From an uncultured Cytophagales bacterium (lineage in GTDB: Bacteria > Bacteroidota > Bacteroidia > Cytophagales > Thermoflexibacteraceae), in assembly GCA_938039675.1 (NCBI GenBank), contig CALHUI010000004.1, positions 1 to 64,000 on the forward strand: a DNA stretch of 64,000 nt, given 5' to 3'. Below are positions 35,162-46,878 of this stretch, piece after piece. Positions within the stretch are counted from its first letter, which is position 1; each line of letters opens with the position of its first letter. Made by a program: the position numbers and the translations under genes. The notes under the pieces are model-generated. The model was not told the DNA's origin. It saw only the letters and a list, made by a program, of their open reading frames with translations, and ran no database searches.

Positions 35162-35914
35162 ATGAACCCAATCATCACGTTGCCCGATTTTTACCTGCCA
35201 AGTATCGGGCGCAAGCGCACAATACACATCTGCCTGCCGCCGGACTACCATACCTGTGTTCGTCATTATCCGGTCATGTATATGCACGACGGCCAAAATC
35301 TCTTTGACGAGGCAAAAGCATATGCCAAGGCTTGGCACGCAGACCGCATTATGAGCCGTCACAGCAACCGAACCAGGCACGGATGGATATTGGTCGGTAT
35401 AGAAAATGGCGGCATCGAGCGGCTCAATGAATACGCACCCTTCGAGCGGAAAGGAATGGGCGGCGGTTTGGCGCATCCATTCCTGCACGATATTCAGGTG
35501 TTTATCAAACCTTTTATAGACAGCAATTACCGCACACTCCCCCATCGGGAGCATACGGCCATGTGTGGCAGCTCAATGGGAGGTTTACTGGCACTCTATG
35601 CAGGTGCTGCTTTTGCGGAAACTTTTGGCAACATAGCTGCCCTGTCGCCTTCGCTCTGGTTCAATCCACAGGTGGCTGAATTGCTCACATCATATGAAAA
35701 GCATCCAACACGGTGGTACGTTGTCGGCAGCCGCACCGAAAGCCGCTATATGGCAGCCACATTGCACCGCATCTATGAGGCACTAAAAAGCGGTCGCCGC
35801 CCCGACAGTCGGCTGTATGTTGCCGTGCGGGACAGAGGCCGCCATAATGAAAGTTTTTGGGGAAGAGAATTCAGGCGTTTACTCATGCACTGGCACGAGG
35901 CAGCGCGCCACTAA
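35162..35914 (+). CDS. Alpha/beta-hydrolase putative esterase (esterase D/Fes type)
   Basis: 250 aa; YPVMYMHDGQNLFDE, CGSSMGGLLALYAG, ALSPSLWF. Confidence 0.87.
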   Translation: MNPIITLPDFYLPSIGRKRTIHICLPPDYHTCVRHYPVMYMHDGQNLFDEAKAYAKAWHADRIMSRHSNRTRHGWILVGIENGGIERLNEYAPFERKGMGGGLAHPFLHDIQVFIKPFIDSNYRTLPHREHTAMCGSSMGGLLALYAGAAFAETFGNIAALSPSLWFNPQVAELLTSYEKHPTRWYVVGSRTESRYMAATLHRIYEALKSGRRPDSRLYVAVRDRGRHNESFWGREFRRLLMHWHEAARH

Positions 35915-36462
35915 AACGCCGAGATATTTTCCAATTCCTCCAAATGCACCTTCAACAGTTTCATCGGCTTGGCTATGGCAATTCTGCCGGAGCGGACAAA
36001 ACTCAGTACGCCGTAGGGTTTAAGTTCGTTAAACAGTTTCATAGTTTCCTCTTCATGGCCTGTTTTCTCAATCACTATAAACTCCGGCTCAATCGTAATG
36101 ACGCGGGCGTAGTTATCGCGGATGATTTTTTCTACTACTTGGCTACCTGCAAATGCTTCCGTCGGCATTTTGTACAATGCCAATTCTTGATAAACAATCT
36201 GCTCATCGCTGTAATAAAAGGCTTTCAATACCTCCACTTGTTTTTCAATCTGCCGCACAATCACGCCGATGCGGTCGGGAGTGGTGCGGATAACTACCGT
36301 AAATCGGCTGATGCCTTTGTTTTCCGTTTCGGAAACGGTCAAACTGTCCACATTAATTTTACGACGCGTGAAAATGGCCGTAATGCGGCTTAAAAGGCCG
36401 ACTTTGTCTTCTGTGAAAATAGATACAGTATATCGCTGCTGATTTTCTTCTAAGGCTTGCAT
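35911..36462 (-). CDS. ilvN: Acetolactate synthase small subunit
   Basis: YTVSIFTEDKVGLLSRITAIFTRRKINVDSLTVSETENKGISRFTVV ACT domain; start placed at MQALEENQQ. Confidence 0.94.
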   Translation of the reverse strand: MQALEENQQRYTVSIFTEDKVGLLSRITAIFTRRKINVDSLTVSETENKGISRFTVVIRTTPDRIGVIVRQIEKQVEVLKAFYYSDEQIVYQELALYKMPTEAFAGSQVVEKIIRDNYARVITIEPEFIVIEKTGHEEETMKLFNELKPYGVLSFVRSGRIAIAKPMKLLKVHLEELENISAF

Positions 36463-36565
36463 AAATAAGTTGTTGTTTTTGCCGTGATATATACATTTAT
36501 GGTTGATGCAGGGATGTCGCATGTCCGTGTTGCTCATTACCTATCCCTACGGCGCATCCTGACAA

Positions 36566-38260
36566 CTATTCCAGCCGAATTTCGGCAACCGAAGCCCCTG
36601 ACGGCACCATCGGGAATACGTTATCCTCTTTTTCTACCATTACTTCCAGAAAATAGGCAGATTGACTGTTGAGCATTTCTTCCAGCGCTTTGCCCAGTTC
36701 TTCGCGGTTATCTACGCGGCGCGCAGGGATATAGTACGACTCTGCCAACTTCACAAAATCGGGGTTCTGAATATCCACGCTGGAATAGCGCCGTTCAAAA
36801 AACAACTGTTGCCACTGGCGCACCATGCCCAAAAAGTTGTTGTTCAGCAAGAGTATTTTTACGGGGATATTATACTGCATGATAACCCCCAGTTCCTGTA
36901 AGGTCATTTGGAAGCCGCCATCGCCAATAACTGCCACTACCTGCCTGTCGGGGCAACCTATCTTTGCACCGATGGCTGCCGGCAAGCAAAAGCCCATGGT
37001 TCCTAAACCACCGGAAGTGATATTGCTATACGGCTCGTCAAATTCGTAGTAGCGCGTGGCCATCATCTGATGCTGCCCCACGTCGGTAGCTATAATAGCT
37101 TTTCCTTGTGTCATTTGAGAAAGCATGCGAATGACTTCTGCCATTTTTGGCAGCGATGTAGTGGGTGCAAAGTCTTTCAAAATAACTTTTTCCCGCTCGG
37201 TTGCATCACATTCCTTAAACTTGGCCATCCATTCGGGGTAGCGCTTTACTTCCAAAAGAGGTAACAGTGCCTGCAAGGCTTCTTTGGCATCTGCTACAAC
37301 AGCAACTTCGGTCTTTACGTTTTTATCAATTTCGGCAGGGTCAATTTCTATGTGAATCACTTTTGCCTGCTTAGCGTAGCCGTCCAAACGACCCGTAACG
37401 CGGTCGTCAAATCGCATACCGACCGCAATGAGTACATCGCACTCGTTTGTAAGCACATTGGGTCCGTAGTTGCCGTGCATACCCAAATATCCCACGTATT
37501 GCGGGTGATGTACACTCATGGCAGAAAGTCCCAGCAAGGTGCTCGCCACGGGGATGCCCGCTTTTTCGGCCATTTCTTTTACTTCGGCTTGCGCACCTGA
37601 CAGCACTACCCCATGCCCGATGAGCATAAAAGGACGCTCAGCGTTGTTAATCAGGGCAGCGGCACGTTCTACGGCACTCAAATCCACTTTTCGCTTGGGG
37701 AAATAGCTGCGGATTTTGGTGCACTTGCGGTACTGAAAATCAAAAATTTCGGTTTGGGCATTTTTGGTAATATCTACCAGCACAGGACCGGGGCGACCGC
37801 TTTGGGCAATGTAGAAGGCTTTGGCAATTGCTTCGGGGATTTCTTCGGCACGCGTAACCTGATAGTTCCATTTGGTAATAGGCATAGAAATACCAATTAC
37901 GTCGGTTTCCTGAAAAGCATCTGTACCAAGCAAGTGCTTGCCAACCTGCCCGGTAATGCAGACAATCGGTGTAGAATCAATCATCGCATCGGCAATACCG
38001 GTGATGAGGTTAGTAGCCCCCGGTCCGGAGGTTGCCATACAAACGCCTGCACGGCGTTTTACCCTTGCGTAACCCTGCGCAGCATGGGCTGCACCTTGTT
38101 CATGTCGCACCAAAAAGTGCTGCAATCGATCGCGGTAGTCGTACAGCGCATCGTAAACCGGCATAATGGCACCGCCCGGATAGCCAAACACACACTCAAC
38201 TCCCTCAGCCAGCAGCGACAGCACCACCGCTTCCGCCCCGCTGATTCCTTTTTTCTCCAT
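36566..38260 (-). CDS. ilvB: Acetolactate synthase large subunit
   Basis: [75 protein letters not shown]; start placed at MEKKGISG rather than 38407. Confidence 0.95.
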
Positions 38261-38431
38261 GATACACTCGCCCATCAGGGTTTGTGAATTGATGGCTGTG
38301 GACAACTCAGCCTCTTCCTGCAAAAGCATTCCCATAAAATTGATTGCCAAAAATTGATTAACCTCATTAACTATTTTATTACTAAATCTTTTGTTGATAA
38401 ACCTCATATAATAATGGCTTCCGTTATGCTT

Positions 38432-40123
38432 CTATGCGTCGGTAACGCAGCCTTCGGAAGCAGAACTTACATTTTTGATGTATTTCCAGAGTGCCCCGCT
38501 TTGGACTTTGTAGGGCGGCATCTGCCACTCGCGGCGGCGTTGGGCAAGTTCCTCGTCGCTGACCAGCACCTCCAATCGGCGATTGACAGCATCAATAATG
38601 ATGGCATCTCCATTGCGGATGAGGGCAATGGGGCCGCCGACTTGTGCCTCGGGTGTAATGTGTCCGACTACGAAGCCATGCGTTCCGCCTGAAAAGCGCC
38701 CGTCGGTGATGAGTGCCACTTTATCGCCCAAGCCCGAGCCCATAATAGCCGAAGTCGGTTTGAGCATTTCGGGCATTCCGGGTGCTCCTTTCGGACCGCA
38801 GTAGCGAATAACGACCACATCGCCGGGCTGAATTTCCTGCTTGGCGATGCCTTCGTTCAGTGCCTGCTCCGAATCATAGACACGGGCTTTACCTTCAAAG
38901 CGCTCGCCTTCTTTACCCGTGATTTTAGCTACTGCACCTTCGGGCGCGAGATTGCCGTGCAGAATCTGGATGTGTCCGCTGGCTTTGATAGGATTATTTA
39001 ATGGCCGAATAATTTCCTGTCCTTGCTGCAAGCCCAATGAGTTGGCAAGATTTTCGGCAATGGTTTTGCCTGTGATGGTCATGCAATCGCCATGGATGAG
39101 TCCTTCGGCATGAAGCATTTTCATCACTGCCTGTACGCCGCCGATGTTGCAAAGGTCTTCCATGAAATATTTGCCGCTTGGTTTCAAATCGGCAATGTAG
39201 GGCGTGCGGTCGCTGATGCGCTGAAAATCGGCAAGGGTAAGTTTTACGCCTACGGTTTTTGCCATTGCCAACAGGTGCAGCACGGCATTGGTAGAGCCTC
39301 CCAGTGCCATAACCATTGTAATCGCGTTTTCAAAGGCTTCAAAGGTCATGATGTCGCGGGGCTTAAGGTCTAACTCTAAGGCGCGCAGCATTACCTGACC
39401 GATTTGGTCGCACTCGGCGTGCTTCATCGGGCTAACGGCCGGAAAAGAACTACTGTTGGGTAGGCTCATACCCAAGGCTTCAATGGCTGTTGCCATTGTA
39501 TTGGCGGTGTACATGCCGCCGCAAGCTCCCGCCCCCGGAATAGCATTTTTAATCACGCCTTTGTATTCTTCGTCGGTAATAGTTCCGGCAACTTTTTTTC
39601 CGTAAGCCTCAAAAACCGAGATGATGTCCAATTTTTTGCCTTTGTATTGCCCGTAGTCGTAGCGTCCCGAGTTGATGGTACCGCCGTAAACAACAATGGC
39701 GGGGCGGTTCAGCCTGCCGATGGCAATCATGGCACCGGGCATGTTTTTGTCGCAGCCGACGAGTGCTACTACGCCGTCGTAGCATTGCCCGCCAACGATG
39801 GTTTCTATGGAATCGGCAATGACATCGCGGCTGGGCAGTGAATAGCGCATCCAATCCGTTCCGTTGGTCATGCCGTCCGAAACGCCAATCGTATTGAAAG
39901 TTAAGCCGATGAGTTTATTGGTTGCATTCAAACTTGCCTTAACGCGTGTGGCAAGCGCGTTGAGGTGCATGTTGCAGGTGTTGCCCTCGTAGCCTGTGCT
40001 GGCAATCCCGATTTGGGCTTTGTTCATGTCCTCATCGGTGAGTCCCACGCCATAAAGCATCGCTTTGGCGGCAGGCAGACTCTCGTCTTGGGTAAAAGTG
40101 CGACTGAATTTATTGAGTTCCAT
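38432..40123 (-). CDS. ilvD: Dihydroxy-acid dehydratase
   Basis: 563 aa; [65 protein letters not shown]. Confidence 0.96.
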
Positions 40124-41013
40124 CAGATGATTGTATAGGCCGGTTCGTGAACAGAATGTACCAATTCATTATAAGCCTCTGCGATACGGGCACATTGCGA
40201 TTTATTAAAAGGCAGTTTCAATAAATTGCCATCCACAGAGGCAATGCCTGCCACTTCGGTTGCCGTTCCGGTAAATATGGCAGCATCGGCTTCCAAAAGT
40301 TCTTCTACTGTGATAATGCGTTCACGGACTTCTATTTTCAGGGATTTTGCCAAATCTATTACTGTTGCGCGGGTAATGCCGGGTATGATGTGCCCCAGTG
40401 GCGGGGTAATCAGCACGCCGTCTTTTTCAATGAAAATATTAGAGCCGGGTGCTTGTGCCACACAGCCGTTTTCATCCAGCATAATAGCTTCGTCAAAGCC
40501 GCGTTGTTTGGCTTCGGTACTTGCCATAATATTGGGTACATAGTTGCCCGTGATTTTACCCATCACAGGCGTTTCCTTGGGGCTGATGCGCACATATGGG
40601 CTGATACAAGTATTAAGCAATCGGTCGCCAAGGTAGCGCGGCCACTTCCAAGCAGCCATAAACAACTTGGTATCGCCTCCTGCCATAAGCCCTATATTGT
40701 CGGCTGCAATAAGTATGGGGCGTATATAGGCATTTTTCAGTTTGTTGCGTTCCAGCAGTTCATAAGCAATCTTTTCCAGTTCGGCTGTGTCGTAGTCAAA
40801 CTTCATATGCAGGGCTTCTGCGGTTTTTTTCATGCGGGCGAAATGTTCCATCGGCTTGAAGATGCGCACGCCATGCTGTGTCTGATAGGCTTTCAGCCCT
40901 TCAAAAATCCCCAGTCCATAGTGGAGGCTTTGTGAATAAGGGCTAATGCTTGTTTCTTTACTTTTCAAAAATTTGCCGTCAAAAAATGAAACGGTTTTGT
41001 CGTTGTAATACAT
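40123..41013 (-). CDS. ilvE: Branched-chain amino acid aminotransferase
   Basis: Start placed at [13 protein letters not shown] (41013); [54 protein letters not shown]. The upstream ORF extension to 41094 is translation of the attenuator hairpin. Confidence 0.95.
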
Positions 41014-41054
41014 GGTTGTATGGTTTTGATAAGGTTGCCGAAGAATACTTATAT

Positions 41055-41091
41055 AAAAAAGCCTTTCCATTAGGTCGGATGGAAAGGCTTT
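41055..41091 (-). terminator. Attenuator terminator hairpin in ilvE leader
   Basis: Minus strand AAAGCCTTTCCAT ccgaccta ATGGAAAGGCTTTTTT: 13-bp perfect stem plus U-run, upstream of the ilvE start. Confidence 0.88.
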
Positions 41092-41117
41092 CATTTATGT
41101 GTGCAATGGGCCACTTC

Positions 41118-41171
41118 TCATCCGACAATCGGCAGAAGAGTAATGACCAGCACAGCAATATTGAACAACAT
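41118..41171 (-). CDS. Branched-chain amino acid leader peptide (attenuator control peptide)
   Basis: Minus strand ATG TTG TTC AAT ATT GCT GTG CTG GTC ATT ACT CTT CTG CCG ATT GTC GGA TGA = MLFNIAVLVITLLPIVG*; 10 of 17 residues are I/L/V. Confidence 0.85.
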   Translation of the reverse strand: MLFNIAVLVITLLPIVG

Positions 41172-41190
41172 CAGTTTTAACGATTTTTTT

Positions 41191-41222
41191 CAAAACTACG
41201 AATCCAAATTGAAAAGTCCAAA
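41191..41222 (-). promoter_or_regulatory. Bacteroidota-type promoter for the ilvEDBN transcript
   Basis: Minus strand TTTG-N20-TAGTTTTG (matches TTTG/TAnnTTTG), about 20 nt upstream of the leader ATG. Confidence 0.75.
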
Positions 41223-41249: not shown

Positions 41250-42413
41250 TTAAACTTCGGCTTTAAGCTGCATTTTTTCCATGAGCTGTTGCAAATGGTC
41301 GTCGTTGATGTTTTTATATTGGTCTGCCAAGATGAGGAATTGCTCATAGGCCATGTCCAGTGTGGCGCGGTCTAACTTGAAGCCGATGTTTTCCAAGCGA
41401 TAGTTCAGTGCGGCACGTCCGCTGCGGGCAGTGAGTACAATGCTGCTGCTACCTGCGCCCACATCGGCAGGGTCGATAATTTCGTAGTTCTCGCGGTGCT
41501 TCAATACGCCGTCCTGATGGATACCTGACGAGTGTGCAAATGCATTTGCTCCCACAATCGCTTTATTAGGCTGCACGGGCATCCGCATCAGGCGCGAAAC
41601 AAGTTTACTCAACGGCCCGAGTTGCTGGGTTTTGATATGGGTTTCCAGCCCGAGGTACTTATGGGTTTTTAAAACCATCACCACTTCTTCCAATGAAGTA
41701 TTACCCGCTCGTTCACCGATGCCGTTCATGGTGCATTCTACCTGCCGCGCACCGTTAATTAGCCCGTAGAGAGAGTTTGCCGTAGCCAGTCCTAAGTCGT
41801 TGTGGCAGTGTACCGAAATAGTAGCTTTTTCTATGCCTTTTACATTTTCCACCAAATACTTAATTTTAGCTCCGTATTCGTGGGGCAGGCAGTATCCCGT
41901 CGTATCGGGAATATTGACTACGGTTGCCCCTGCGGCAATAACTAACTCAATCATCTGCGCCAGATAAACGGGGTCGGCACGTCCGGCATCTTCGGCAAAA
42001 AATTCCACATCTTCCACAAACGATTTGGCGTATTTAACGGCGCGCACGGCGCGTTCCAGCATCTCCTCGCGGGTCGAACGAAATTTGTGCTTAATGTGAA
42101 AGTCGGAAGCACCCAATCCGGTATGGATGCGTTTGCGCTTAGCATACTGCAAAGCTTCAGCTGCCACCTTGATGTCTTTTTCTACGGCACGACTCAACCC
42201 ACAAATCACAGGTTCACTGACAGCTTTGGAAATTTCCTGCACCGAACGGAAGTCTTCGGGGCTGGAAATCGGGAAACCTGCTTCGATAATGTCTACGCCC
42301 AAGGCTTCCAACTCGCGGGCGACCATAATTTTTTCCTGTGTGTTCAACTGACATCCCGGCACCTGTTCGCCATCGCGCAACGTGGTGTCAAACACATAGA
42401 CTCGGTTACTCAT
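41250..42413 (-). CDS. leuA: 2-isopropylmalate synthase, short form
   Basis: 387 aa; [50 protein letters not shown]; no long C-terminal LeuA allosteric domain. Confidence 0.92.
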
Positions 42414-44357: not shown

Positions 44358-44837
44358 TCAGTTTTCCAAAGGTTGAATGGCTATTAATTCAAATCTTTCG
44401 CATGAAATGGCGGCGGGTTTGCCGTCCATGCCAATCGGCTTTTGTTCCATCGGGTTGGGGGATGGCTCTATGGTGTATTGCCGCAGTTGCCCGCGTAGTT
44501 CCACCGCTTGCCCTGTCAGCTTTTCTGCCTGCGTTGCCAGCGTACCCGTTTCAGCAATGAACAGGATTACTTCGCTGCTGTCTGCTTTTTGCAGCACCCA
44601 ATAGCCGCTGCCACCCGCGCAGTAGCTTTGGATGGTTTTGCTCCACGACTTAGGCATCAGCCGTCCACGCAGCGTCTCGCCTTGCGGTGCGCAACTTGCA
44701 GTTGTAAAGGCAAGTATGAGCAAGCATATATAGAAGCAGCTACCCAAACTTGACGGGCCTTGAAGACCCGTCAAGTTTATGCGTGCAACTGTCAGGTCGG
44801 TATGTACAAGTTGATATGTCCGCAATAGTTGTTTCAT
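44358..44837 (-). CDS. Hypothetical lipoprotein
   Basis: Hydrophobic segment with lipobox [13 protein letters not shown] start overlaps the upstream gene stop as ATGA; N-terminal ~30 aa partly encoded by an inverted repeat, so the true start is uncertain. Confidence 0.6.
44746..44778. repeat. Inverted repeat inside the lipoprotein gene 5' end
   Basis: AAACTTGACGGG ... CCCGTCAAGTTT. Confidence 0.65.
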
Positions 44838-45433
44838 TGCAACTGCGAAAGGTCTAACTCAAAACCGGGTAGCACCTCTCCGCCGCTAAGACGTTGATTG
44901 AAACCCTGCACTGTTTCAGGCACGGCATCGGGACGATACACGTAAACCGTTTGCGCATCGGCATCAATCAGCCATGCCAAACGGCAGCCGTTGCCTATCC
45001 AATCACCTGTAATTGTTTGCTGTAGTTCTTTCAGCGAATCCGATTCGGAACGCAATTCAATGATAAAATCAGGGCAAAGGGGCGGAAATTGTCGCTGTTC
45101 AAGTTCCGACAATTGTTCCCACCGCTCTTTGGCTATCCGCGCTGCATCGGGTGAACGCACTGCGCCGCTTGCCAAGCGAAAAGATGTAGATGAATCAAAT
45201 GTTTCACCCAAGTTGGCGGCTAAATTCCACCCTGTCAGAAAGTAATTGATGCGGGCATTGATTTTTCCCGTTCGTCCTCCCGTATTTGGCATGATGATGA
45301 TTTGTCCTTCGGATGTGCGTTCAAATTTCAGGTCGGGATTTTCCAGACAGAACTGCATGAACTCCTCTTGGGAAAGCCCGCCTATTGATTTGAAAGACAA
45401 TCTGATAGCCTCTGTCATGGTTGCTGTGCTCAC
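44834..45433 (-). CDS. Uma2 family (DUF820) PD-(D/E)XK endonuclease-like protein
   Basis: 199 aa; EEFMQFCLENPDLKFERTSEGQIIIMPNTGG, SSTSFRLASGAVRSPDAARI, CPDFIIELRSESDSL. Confidence 0.93.
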   Translation of the reverse strand: MSTATMTEAIRLSFKSIGGLSQEEFMQFCLENPDLKFERTSEGQIIIMPNTGGRTGKINARINYFLTGWNLAANLGETFDSSTSFRLASGAVRSPDAARIAKERWEQLSELEQRQFPPLCPDFIIELRSESDSLKELQQTITGDWIGNGCRLAWLIDADAQTVYVYRPDAVPETVQGFNQRLSGGEVLPGFELDLSQLQ

Positions 45434-45453: not shown

Positions 45454-46878
45454 TTACAACATTTCGCGCACGTCGGTTACGCTGCCTGTGATGGCTGCTG
45501 CGGCGGCAGAAAGCGGACTTGCCAAGAAAGTTCTTGCGCCCGGCCCTTGCCTGCCTTCAAAGTTGCGGTTAGAGGTAGAGATGCAATATTTGCCCGCGGG
45601 AATTTTGTCTTCGTTCATACCCAGACAGGCAGAACAGCCCGCACCGCGCATTTCAAAGCCTGCTTCAGCAAAAATCTTGTCCAATCCTTCGGCTTGTGCC
45701 TGTTTGCTTACCTGCTGCGAACCGGGAATGACCCATACTTCCACATTAGGGGCTTTTTTCTTGCCCTTCACGAAAGAGGCAACCTGCCGCAAGTCTTCTA
45801 TGCGCGAATTGGTACAAGAGCCGATGAATACGTAGTCCACGGGTTGCCCTTGCATGGGGCTGCCTTCGCGCAAGCCCATGTATTCCAACGATTTGCGGAA
45901 AGACGCTACTTCGGAAATATCTGCCAACTCCTCCGCCGTAGGGATGCGGTCGGTTATCTTGATGCCCATGCCGGGGTTGGTGCCATAGGTAATCATGGGT
46001 TCTATGTCGGCGGCATCAAAAGTCAGCACGCGGTCAAATTCTGCATCTTCGTCGGTGTAAAGGGTCTGCCAGTAGGCAAGTGCCTTATCCCATGCCTCAC
46101 CTTCGGGGGCAAATTTTCTGCCTTTAACGTAGTCAAATGTGGTTTGGTCGGGGGCAATCAGCCCGCCGCGTGCGCCCATTTCAATGCTCATGTTGCAAAT
46201 AGTCATGCGGGCTTCCATGCTCAGCGAACGGATGGCACTGCCGGCATATTCCACAAAGTAGCCCGTGCCGCCGCTTGCCGAAATTTTGGATATGATATAG
46301 AGGATGATATCTTTTGCCGTTACGCCTTTGCCCAAAGTACCGTTAACCTCTATCTTCATGCGCTTGGGCTTGTATTGCAAGATGCACTGCGTCGCCAACA
46401 CCTGTTCCACCTCACTTGTACCAATACCGAAGGCAATAGTACCGAAAGCGCCATGCGTGCTGGTGTGGCTGTCGCCGCAAACGATGGTCATGCCGGGCTG
46501 CGTAATACCCAATTCCGGACCGATAACATGCACAATGCCCTGATAGGGATGCCCAAGACCGTAAAGTTCAATCCCAAAATCGGCGCAATTTTTTGTCAGG
46601 GTTTCTACCTGCATCCGCGAAAGAGCATCTTTGATAGGCAGATGCTGGTCTTTAGTGGGTACATTGTGGTCGGCAGTGGCTACCGTGCGATAGGTTCGGA
46701 ACACGGGCAGCCCACGCTTGCGCAAGCCTGCAAATGCCTGCGGGCTGGTTACTTCGTGGATAAAGTGCTTGTCAATATACAGCACATCGGGATGTCCGGG
46801 GCGGGCAGTTACCACGTGGCTGTCCCAAATTTTGTCAAATAAAGTACGTGGCTTCATATCAGTTTTTACAACAGGCAA
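45454..46878 (-). CDS. leuC: 3-isopropylmalate dehydratase large subunit
   Basis: 474 aa; [71 protein letters not shown]. Confidence 0.96.

Follow-up and report, generated by a model that had tools for sequence, protein, structure and literature searches.

A predicted leader-peptide attenuator for branched-chain amino acid synthesis upstream of ilvEDBN in a Cytophagales genome, and similar leaders across the Bacteroidota

The window, by which we mean the whole stretch of 64,000 nucleotides that was analyzed here, comes from an uncultured Cytophagales bacterium of the Thermoflexibacteraceae (GenBank assembly GCA_938039675.1, contig CALHUI010000004.1) and carries a leu–ilv gene cluster on its minus strand. 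The genes that frame the element described in this paper are as follows.

35911 to 36537, minus strand: ilvN, acetolactate synthase small subunit (TIGR00119, above cut-off)
36566 to 38407, minus strand: ilvB, acetolactate synthase large subunit (TIGR00118, above cut-off)
38432 to 40123, minus strand: ilvD, dihydroxy-acid dehydratase (TIGR00110, above cut-off)
40123 to 41013, minus strand: ilvE, branched-chain aminotransferase (NCBIfam TIGR01122 ilvE_I, above cut-off; start placed by N-terminal comparison with relatives)
41250 to 42413, minus strand: leuA, 2-isopropylmalate synthase (NCBIfam NF002086, above cut-off), immediately upstream of the leader region

Further upstream of leuA, NCBIfam models identify leuB and leuD. 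Between leuD and a leuC-like ORF (45454-46878), two ORFs of 159 and 199 amino acids that do not obviously belong to the leucine pathway occupy 44358-45433 on the minus strand. The ilvB ORF as listed has about 55 surplus N-terminal residues. The start of ilvE also needs to be corrected: the ORF caller had extended the gene upstream through a hairpin, as was already remarked in the first-pass annotation of this DNA, and the ATG that it chose, at 41094, indeed lies inside the terminator described below. Position 41013 is the better start because the IlvE proteins of relatives begin at the position matching MYYNDKT, and on this comparison the longest-ORF start is likely an annotation error. If so, gene callers place the ilvE start wrongly, inside the terminator, and overlook the leader.

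Two features lie at the upstream end of the region that separates leuA from ilvE.

41191 to 41222, minus strand: predicted Bacteroidota-type promoter, with -33 TTTG at 41222-41219, a 20-nt spacer and -7 TAGTTTTG at 41198-41191
41118 to 41171, minus strand: leader ORF MLFNIAVLVITLLPIVG, ATG to TGA, 17 codons; Ile, Val and Leu account for 10 of the 16 residues that follow the Met

The leader ATG stands 78 nt from the leuA stop codon. Its branched-chain codons are three for Ile (all ATT), three for Val (GTG, GTC, GTC) and four for Leu (TTG, CTG, CTT, CTG), so that a short ORF rich in codons for the operon's own product amino acids is found ahead of ilvEDBN. Such a content of Ile, Val and Leu is reached by one of the 385 ATG-started ORFs of 14-24 codons on both strands of the window, which is the leader itself, and in a terminator scan of the window the leader was the sole ORF rich in these residues to be followed by a terminator. 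From the promoter motif a transcription start can be predicted near 41185, which would leave a very short 5' untranslated region ahead of the leader ATG. Of the 108 leaders that we compared, 22 have TAnnTTTG in the 70 nt that precede them, where shuffles would predict 6; the exact promoter motif is present in a minority of them only.

The RNA that follows can be divided into the segments listed below.

41098 to 41157, minus strand: 1:2 (protector) hairpin, in which the control codons and their surroundings pair with the RNA at and just past the leader stop; it is present in the minimum free energy fold, and largely in the centroid fold, of the free leader RNA
41107 to 41126, minus strand: segment 2 of the antiterminator (GTCGGATGAGAAGTGGC...), which extends across the leader stop codon
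41074 to 41090, minus strand: segment 3, which can pair with segment 2 and makes up the 5' arm and loop of the terminator
41055 to 41094, minus strand: intrinsic terminator (segments 3:4) with a U-run of 6, from folding and sequence

The promoter, the 17-codon ORF, the paired segments, the terminator and the ilvE ATG had all been proposed on the minus strand by the first-pass annotation, and each was found again base for base at its coordinates; the extent of the helices had to be revised. The core complementarity between GTCGGATG (41126-41119) and CATCCGAC (41081-41074), which was described as an 8-bp antiterminator, is present but belongs to a longer structure, the main helix of which has 15 pairs (GUCGGAUG-A-GAAG-U-GGC with GCC-UUUC-CAUCCGAC). 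The 2:3 duplex has an energy of -22.0 kcal/mol, compared with a shuffle mean of -9.5, and none of 500 dinucleotide shuffles was as good. The terminator, with arms AAAGCCTTTCCAT...ATGGAAAGGCTTT and U-run at 41091-41055, stands between the leader ORF and the first structural gene; it lies 25 nt after the leader stop, its stretch folds with a z of about -5, and its stem, given earlier as 13 bp, has 14 bp if the outer G-U is counted. Pairings 2:3 and 3:4 were already recognized, whereas the 1:2 hairpin (41157-41098), which completes the classic four-segment layout, was missing.

Folding of the free leader RNA results in the 1:2 hairpin together with the terminator (-42.2 kcal/mol, z = -3.98 against shuffles). 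When the RNA is freed from 41130 on, the 2:3 antiterminator forms, and when it is freed from 41118 on, the terminator forms; the two are mutually exclusive, and the 5' strand of the antiterminator is covered by a ribosome placed at the leader stop. In a simulated ribosome walk, in which the footprint was assumed to leave RNA free from 13 nt past the first nucleotide of the A-site codon, the probability of 2:3 before segment 4 is made was 0.85-1.00 with codons 3-12 in the A site, 0.50 with codon 13, 0.06 with codon 14 and 0 from codon 15 on. Once the whole RNA is present and at equilibrium, the terminator is favored at every stall position but codons 10-11, at which 2:3 has a slight advantage. 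Since the terminator is the equilibrium winner at most positions, control must be kinetic, with the order of synthesis deciding. A ribosome at Ile15 or Val16 already covers segment 2, and so these codons should not derepress; in this model the useful sensor codons would be Ile5, Val7, Leu8, Val9, Ile10 and perhaps Leu12. The logic proposed earlier, namely that a stalled ribosome allows read-through and a ribosome at the stop codon masks the antiterminator, is reproduced by folding with and without a masked leader 3' end and by the comparison with relatives. Its sensing by Ile, Val and Leu codons should hold for codons 5-10 (perhaps 12) but not for Ile15 and Val16, and read-through hinges on 2:3 forming first.

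One question that arises at such a locus is whether the hairpin is a plain terminator of the upstream leu operon, with a mini-ORF that is there by chance and an ilvE promoter downstream of the hairpin. The geometry would allow it, as the hairpin lies between leuA and ilvE and the end of leuA is 27 nt from the promoter motif. Yet, TAnnTTTG is absent from the 41 nt separating the terminator and ilvE in the window and has one copy upstream of the leader, and other families have a leader and terminator before ilvE with a different upstream sequence. In 27 Cytophagales genomes with a close IlvE, the genome of the window included, a leader rich in Ile, Val and Leu followed by a terminator precedes ilvE in 20 (in the genus and family of the window as well as in several further families); among named relatives, Bernardetiaceae bacterium SKYG34 and Thermoflexibacter sp. 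are the nearest. At least one such unit is found within 620 nt upstream of ilvE in 69 of 80 named Bacteroidota loci, and the sampled loci include Cyclobacteriaceae, Chryseolinea, Pedobacter, Roseivirga, Tenacibaculum and other Flavobacteriales. The density of these units is 1.86 per kb upstream of ilvE, compared with 0.029 per kb in the remainder of these loci, both strands counted, a 64-fold difference that a chance mini-ORF does not fit. In the loci that have no leader before ilvE, it may stand before another gene. The leu-terminator explanation also leaves the synonymous codon bias and the 2:3 complementarity, both described below, unaccounted for, and we regard it as very improbable.

What is conserved in these leaders is the arrangement; their information resides in alternative pairings and in codon content, for which a single nested structure is a poor model. 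The peptide keeps its Ile, Val and Leu content but not its sequence, and its length among relatives is about 14-41 amino acids. The complementarity between the leader-stop region and the 5' arm and loop of the terminator is better than in shuffles at p<=0.05 in 83 of the 108 leaders and at p<=0.01 in 48, with about a quarter of them having no significant 2:3 duplex by this simple shuffle test. Cognate 2:3 duplexes have a mean of -15.1 kcal/mol, compared with -9.6 for mixed, non-cognate pairs from the same 108 leaders. In lineage-aligned sets segment 2 imitates segment 4, as in the Cyclobacteriaceae, where CGGGGC is found in the leaders and the terminators read ACCGCCCCGA...TCGGGGCGGTTT. Within the genus of the window the arrangement is conserved with covariation at two positions only: the first pair of segment 2 in the 2:3 helix has a compensatory change from G-C to C-G in relative G001, and one stem pair of 3:4 reads C-G, C-G, U-G and U-A in the four sequences. 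This covariation is slight, and it is the recurrence across lineages that carries the conservation argument. The first-pass annotation had named the loss of the mini-ORF or of the complementarity in relatives as an observation that would speak against it; the opposite was found, with both kept across families and orders.

Analysis of codon usage in the 108 leaders (the window's own at 41171-41118 among them), with long ORFs of the same loci as expectation, shows a strong synonymous bias. For Val, GUC was found 138 times versus 26.8 expected and GUU 18 versus 88.4; for Ile, AUU 451 versus 299 and AUA 45 versus 127; for Leu, CUA is in excess with 52 versus 21. These leaders share descent, so the counts are not independent and z-scores based on them are inflated. 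The bias depends on position: of the Val codons that lie 18-27 nt before the leader stop, 50 of 69 are GUC, and of the Ile codons there 138 of 150 are AUU; at 60-130 nt before it the corresponding counts are 10 of 27 and 15 of 55. Separate lineages have the same trend: GUU is infrequent in each of the 13 lineage groups, although the commonest Val codon is not GUC in every one of them, and GUG leads in two groups. RNA structure was considered as the sole cause of the GUC bias. GUC third bases are paired with the leader 3' end somewhat more often than those of other Val codons (0.44 versus 0.28-0.35), and pairing in the 1:2 hairpin may add part of this bias; structure is not enough as a sole cause, since AUU third bases are paired less than average (0.52 versus 0.58).

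Another hypothesis is that the product of the mini-ORF is a small hydrophobic peptide with a function of its own, for example a membrane peptide, and that regulation has nothing to do with stalling. Short peptides rich in Ile, Val and Leu do look like small membrane peptides. A choice among synonymous codons, however, is not explicable by a function of the peptide, the constraint being on codons and not on residues alone, and the length and sequence of the peptide vary while its richness in Ile, Val and Leu, the stop-overlapping complementarity and the terminator persist. We therefore give this hypothesis almost no weight. The selective charging of tRNA isoacceptors can account for the leader codon bias: codon bias is known in attenuator control regions, where selective isoacceptor charging has been argued (PMC1183508). 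The bias leads to testable predictions on which isoacceptors lose their charge first.

The alternative folds are by themselves silent on what selects between them, and it could be proposed that an RNA-binding protein or a ligand controls this RNA and that the ORF is incidental. No Rfam family reached its gathering score in the window, T-box and other riboswitches included, and in six related loci the only Rfam match was one tRNA. The Rfam leader families (leu, ilv, his, trp, thr, phe and others) were likewise without a match, the best sub-threshold one being Phe_leader with 17.3 versus 55 bits; sub-threshold matches of this kind are at chance level. The Ile, Val and Leu codons fit the pathway, and most leaders (73 of 108) have a 2:3 duplex that overlaps their stop codon. 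Against this evidence control by a protein or ligand is, like the small peptide, extremely unlikely.

The explanation that fits our data, and in which we have high confidence, is that the window element is a ribosome-mediated transcription attenuator sensing charged branched-chain tRNAs. In the process that we infer, RNA polymerase would start just upstream of the leader, or enter by read-through from the leu genes, with a ribosome trailing it through the 17-codon leader. When Ile-, Val- or Leu-tRNA is short, the ribosome would stall at codons 5-10 (perhaps 12) and block the pairing of segment 1, which would leave segment 2 free; 2:3 would form before segment 4 exists, the terminator would be pre-empted and ilvEDBN would be transcribed. 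When the amino acids suffice, the ribosome would reach the stop codon and cover segment 2, so that 3:4 forms and transcription ends before ilvE.

The window has a single copy of this attenuator. In several other lineages ilvE is preceded by a series of two or three leaders rich in Ile and Val, all of which have a terminator of their own (L107:7559-7950, L054:7583-7850, and also L044, L055, L062, L067, L071, L072, L075, L076, L078, L083, L088 and L103). The automatic scan gave at least two leaders with terminators in 20 of the 80 loci, L060 being a doubtful one among these, and the clear tandem cases include all ten Tenacibaculum loci, three Roseivirga-type loci and L019. In Paenimyroides tangerinum (L107) three attenuators are found in a row, the last two of which are closely similar and probably result from a recent duplication. 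Two other loci are less regular: upstream of ilvE, L015 has a first leader and terminator, then a seven-residue ORF (MLVALLL) and a second terminator, and in L012 a second terminator is present that lacks a clear second leader. The influence of serial attenuation on the dose response could be studied in the double and triple copies, which are natural constructs for this purpose.

Similar leaders exist for other amino acids. A hisG locus of a same-family genome (L111, reverse complement, 1180-1257) has a His-rich leader, MTSLFTTLHHHHHTCPRGRLLAYVL, with a terminator, and Trp-rich leaders with terminators, for example MNIQLHNMAWWWRIPETVV, are found at the trp loci of L153, L154 and L156 (reverse strand). 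Judged from these sequences, leader-peptide attenuation seems general in Cytophagales. The same scan found no comparable leader at the his, phe and trp loci of the window's own genome, and the thr loci reach just 1.5 kb upstream of an internal domain.

The mechanism is a classical one and the window element belongs to a known kind. Within the literature searched, the phylum-wide spread, the codon preference and the serial duplication appear undescribed; that search, outside which most of the subscription literature lies, gave no further papers on ilv attenuation in Bacteroidota beyond those cited here. We consider it likely that ilv attenuation is widespread in Bacteroidota, with a GUC/AUU codon preference of its own and with serial duplicates for the same signal in several lineages that sharpen the response. 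If the leaders work as predicted, branched-chain amino acid synthesis in Bacteroidota is under the enterobacterial logic, perhaps evolved independently. Ribosome-mediated attenuation works only if the polymerase is closely followed by a ribosome, and thus the leaders offer a direct test of transcription–translation coupling in this phylum; if our reading is true, close coupling is implied at the Bacteroidota ilv leaders. Bacteroidota hardly use Shine-Dalgarno sequences.

The enterobacterial ilv and leu attenuators work by alternative 1:2, 2:3 and 3:4 pairing, as found in the window. With the ilvGMEDA, ilvBN and leu attenuators the window also shares a leader rich in Ile, Val and Leu, an intrinsic terminator, branched-chain genes downstream and biased control codons. 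It differs from them in its phylum, in the position of the leader before ilvE within a leu–ilv cluster, in its Bacteroidota-type promoter and in the lack of a match to the Rfam leader models; the preferred control codons of the Bacteroidota leaders, GUC and AUU, are another difference. Attenuation of these enterobacterial operons is cited in PMC1183508. In a survey of 2010, leader-peptide systems had to the authors' knowledge been unshown beyond Proteobacteria and Actinobacteria before their own Firmicutes case (PMC2965389), and the survey of attenuation in bacteria by Lopatovskaya et al. (2010; cited in PMC4833913) may include Bacteroidota. The Corynebacterium ilvBNC attenuator resembles the window in being a uORF-controlled attenuation of branched-chain genes, a likeness taken from abstract descriptions, but belongs to the Actinobacteria (PMC11857589, PMC10272879). 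Closer in lineage is Flavobacterium psychrophilum, of the same phylum and with the same proposed mechanism: a short passage of its 2021 transcriptome study, the main report on Bacteroidota that we found, describes strong indications of attenuation by leader peptides ahead of amino-acid operons, and the main text has pheA and hisG among conserved 5' elements and leaves ilv unmentioned, although its supplementary table may have it (PMC9723704). For Bacteroides thetaiotaomicron, the main text of a published map mentions leader-like sORFs and not ilv (PMC7366714). As for the tandem leaders, the only tandem leader-ORF system that we found in the literature is Salmonella mgtCBR, which also has two leader ORFs in one leader RNA; its ORFs sense different signals, ATP and proline (PMC3641672), whereas the Bacteroidota tandem copies are repeats of one sensor, rich in Ile and Val, each with its own terminator.
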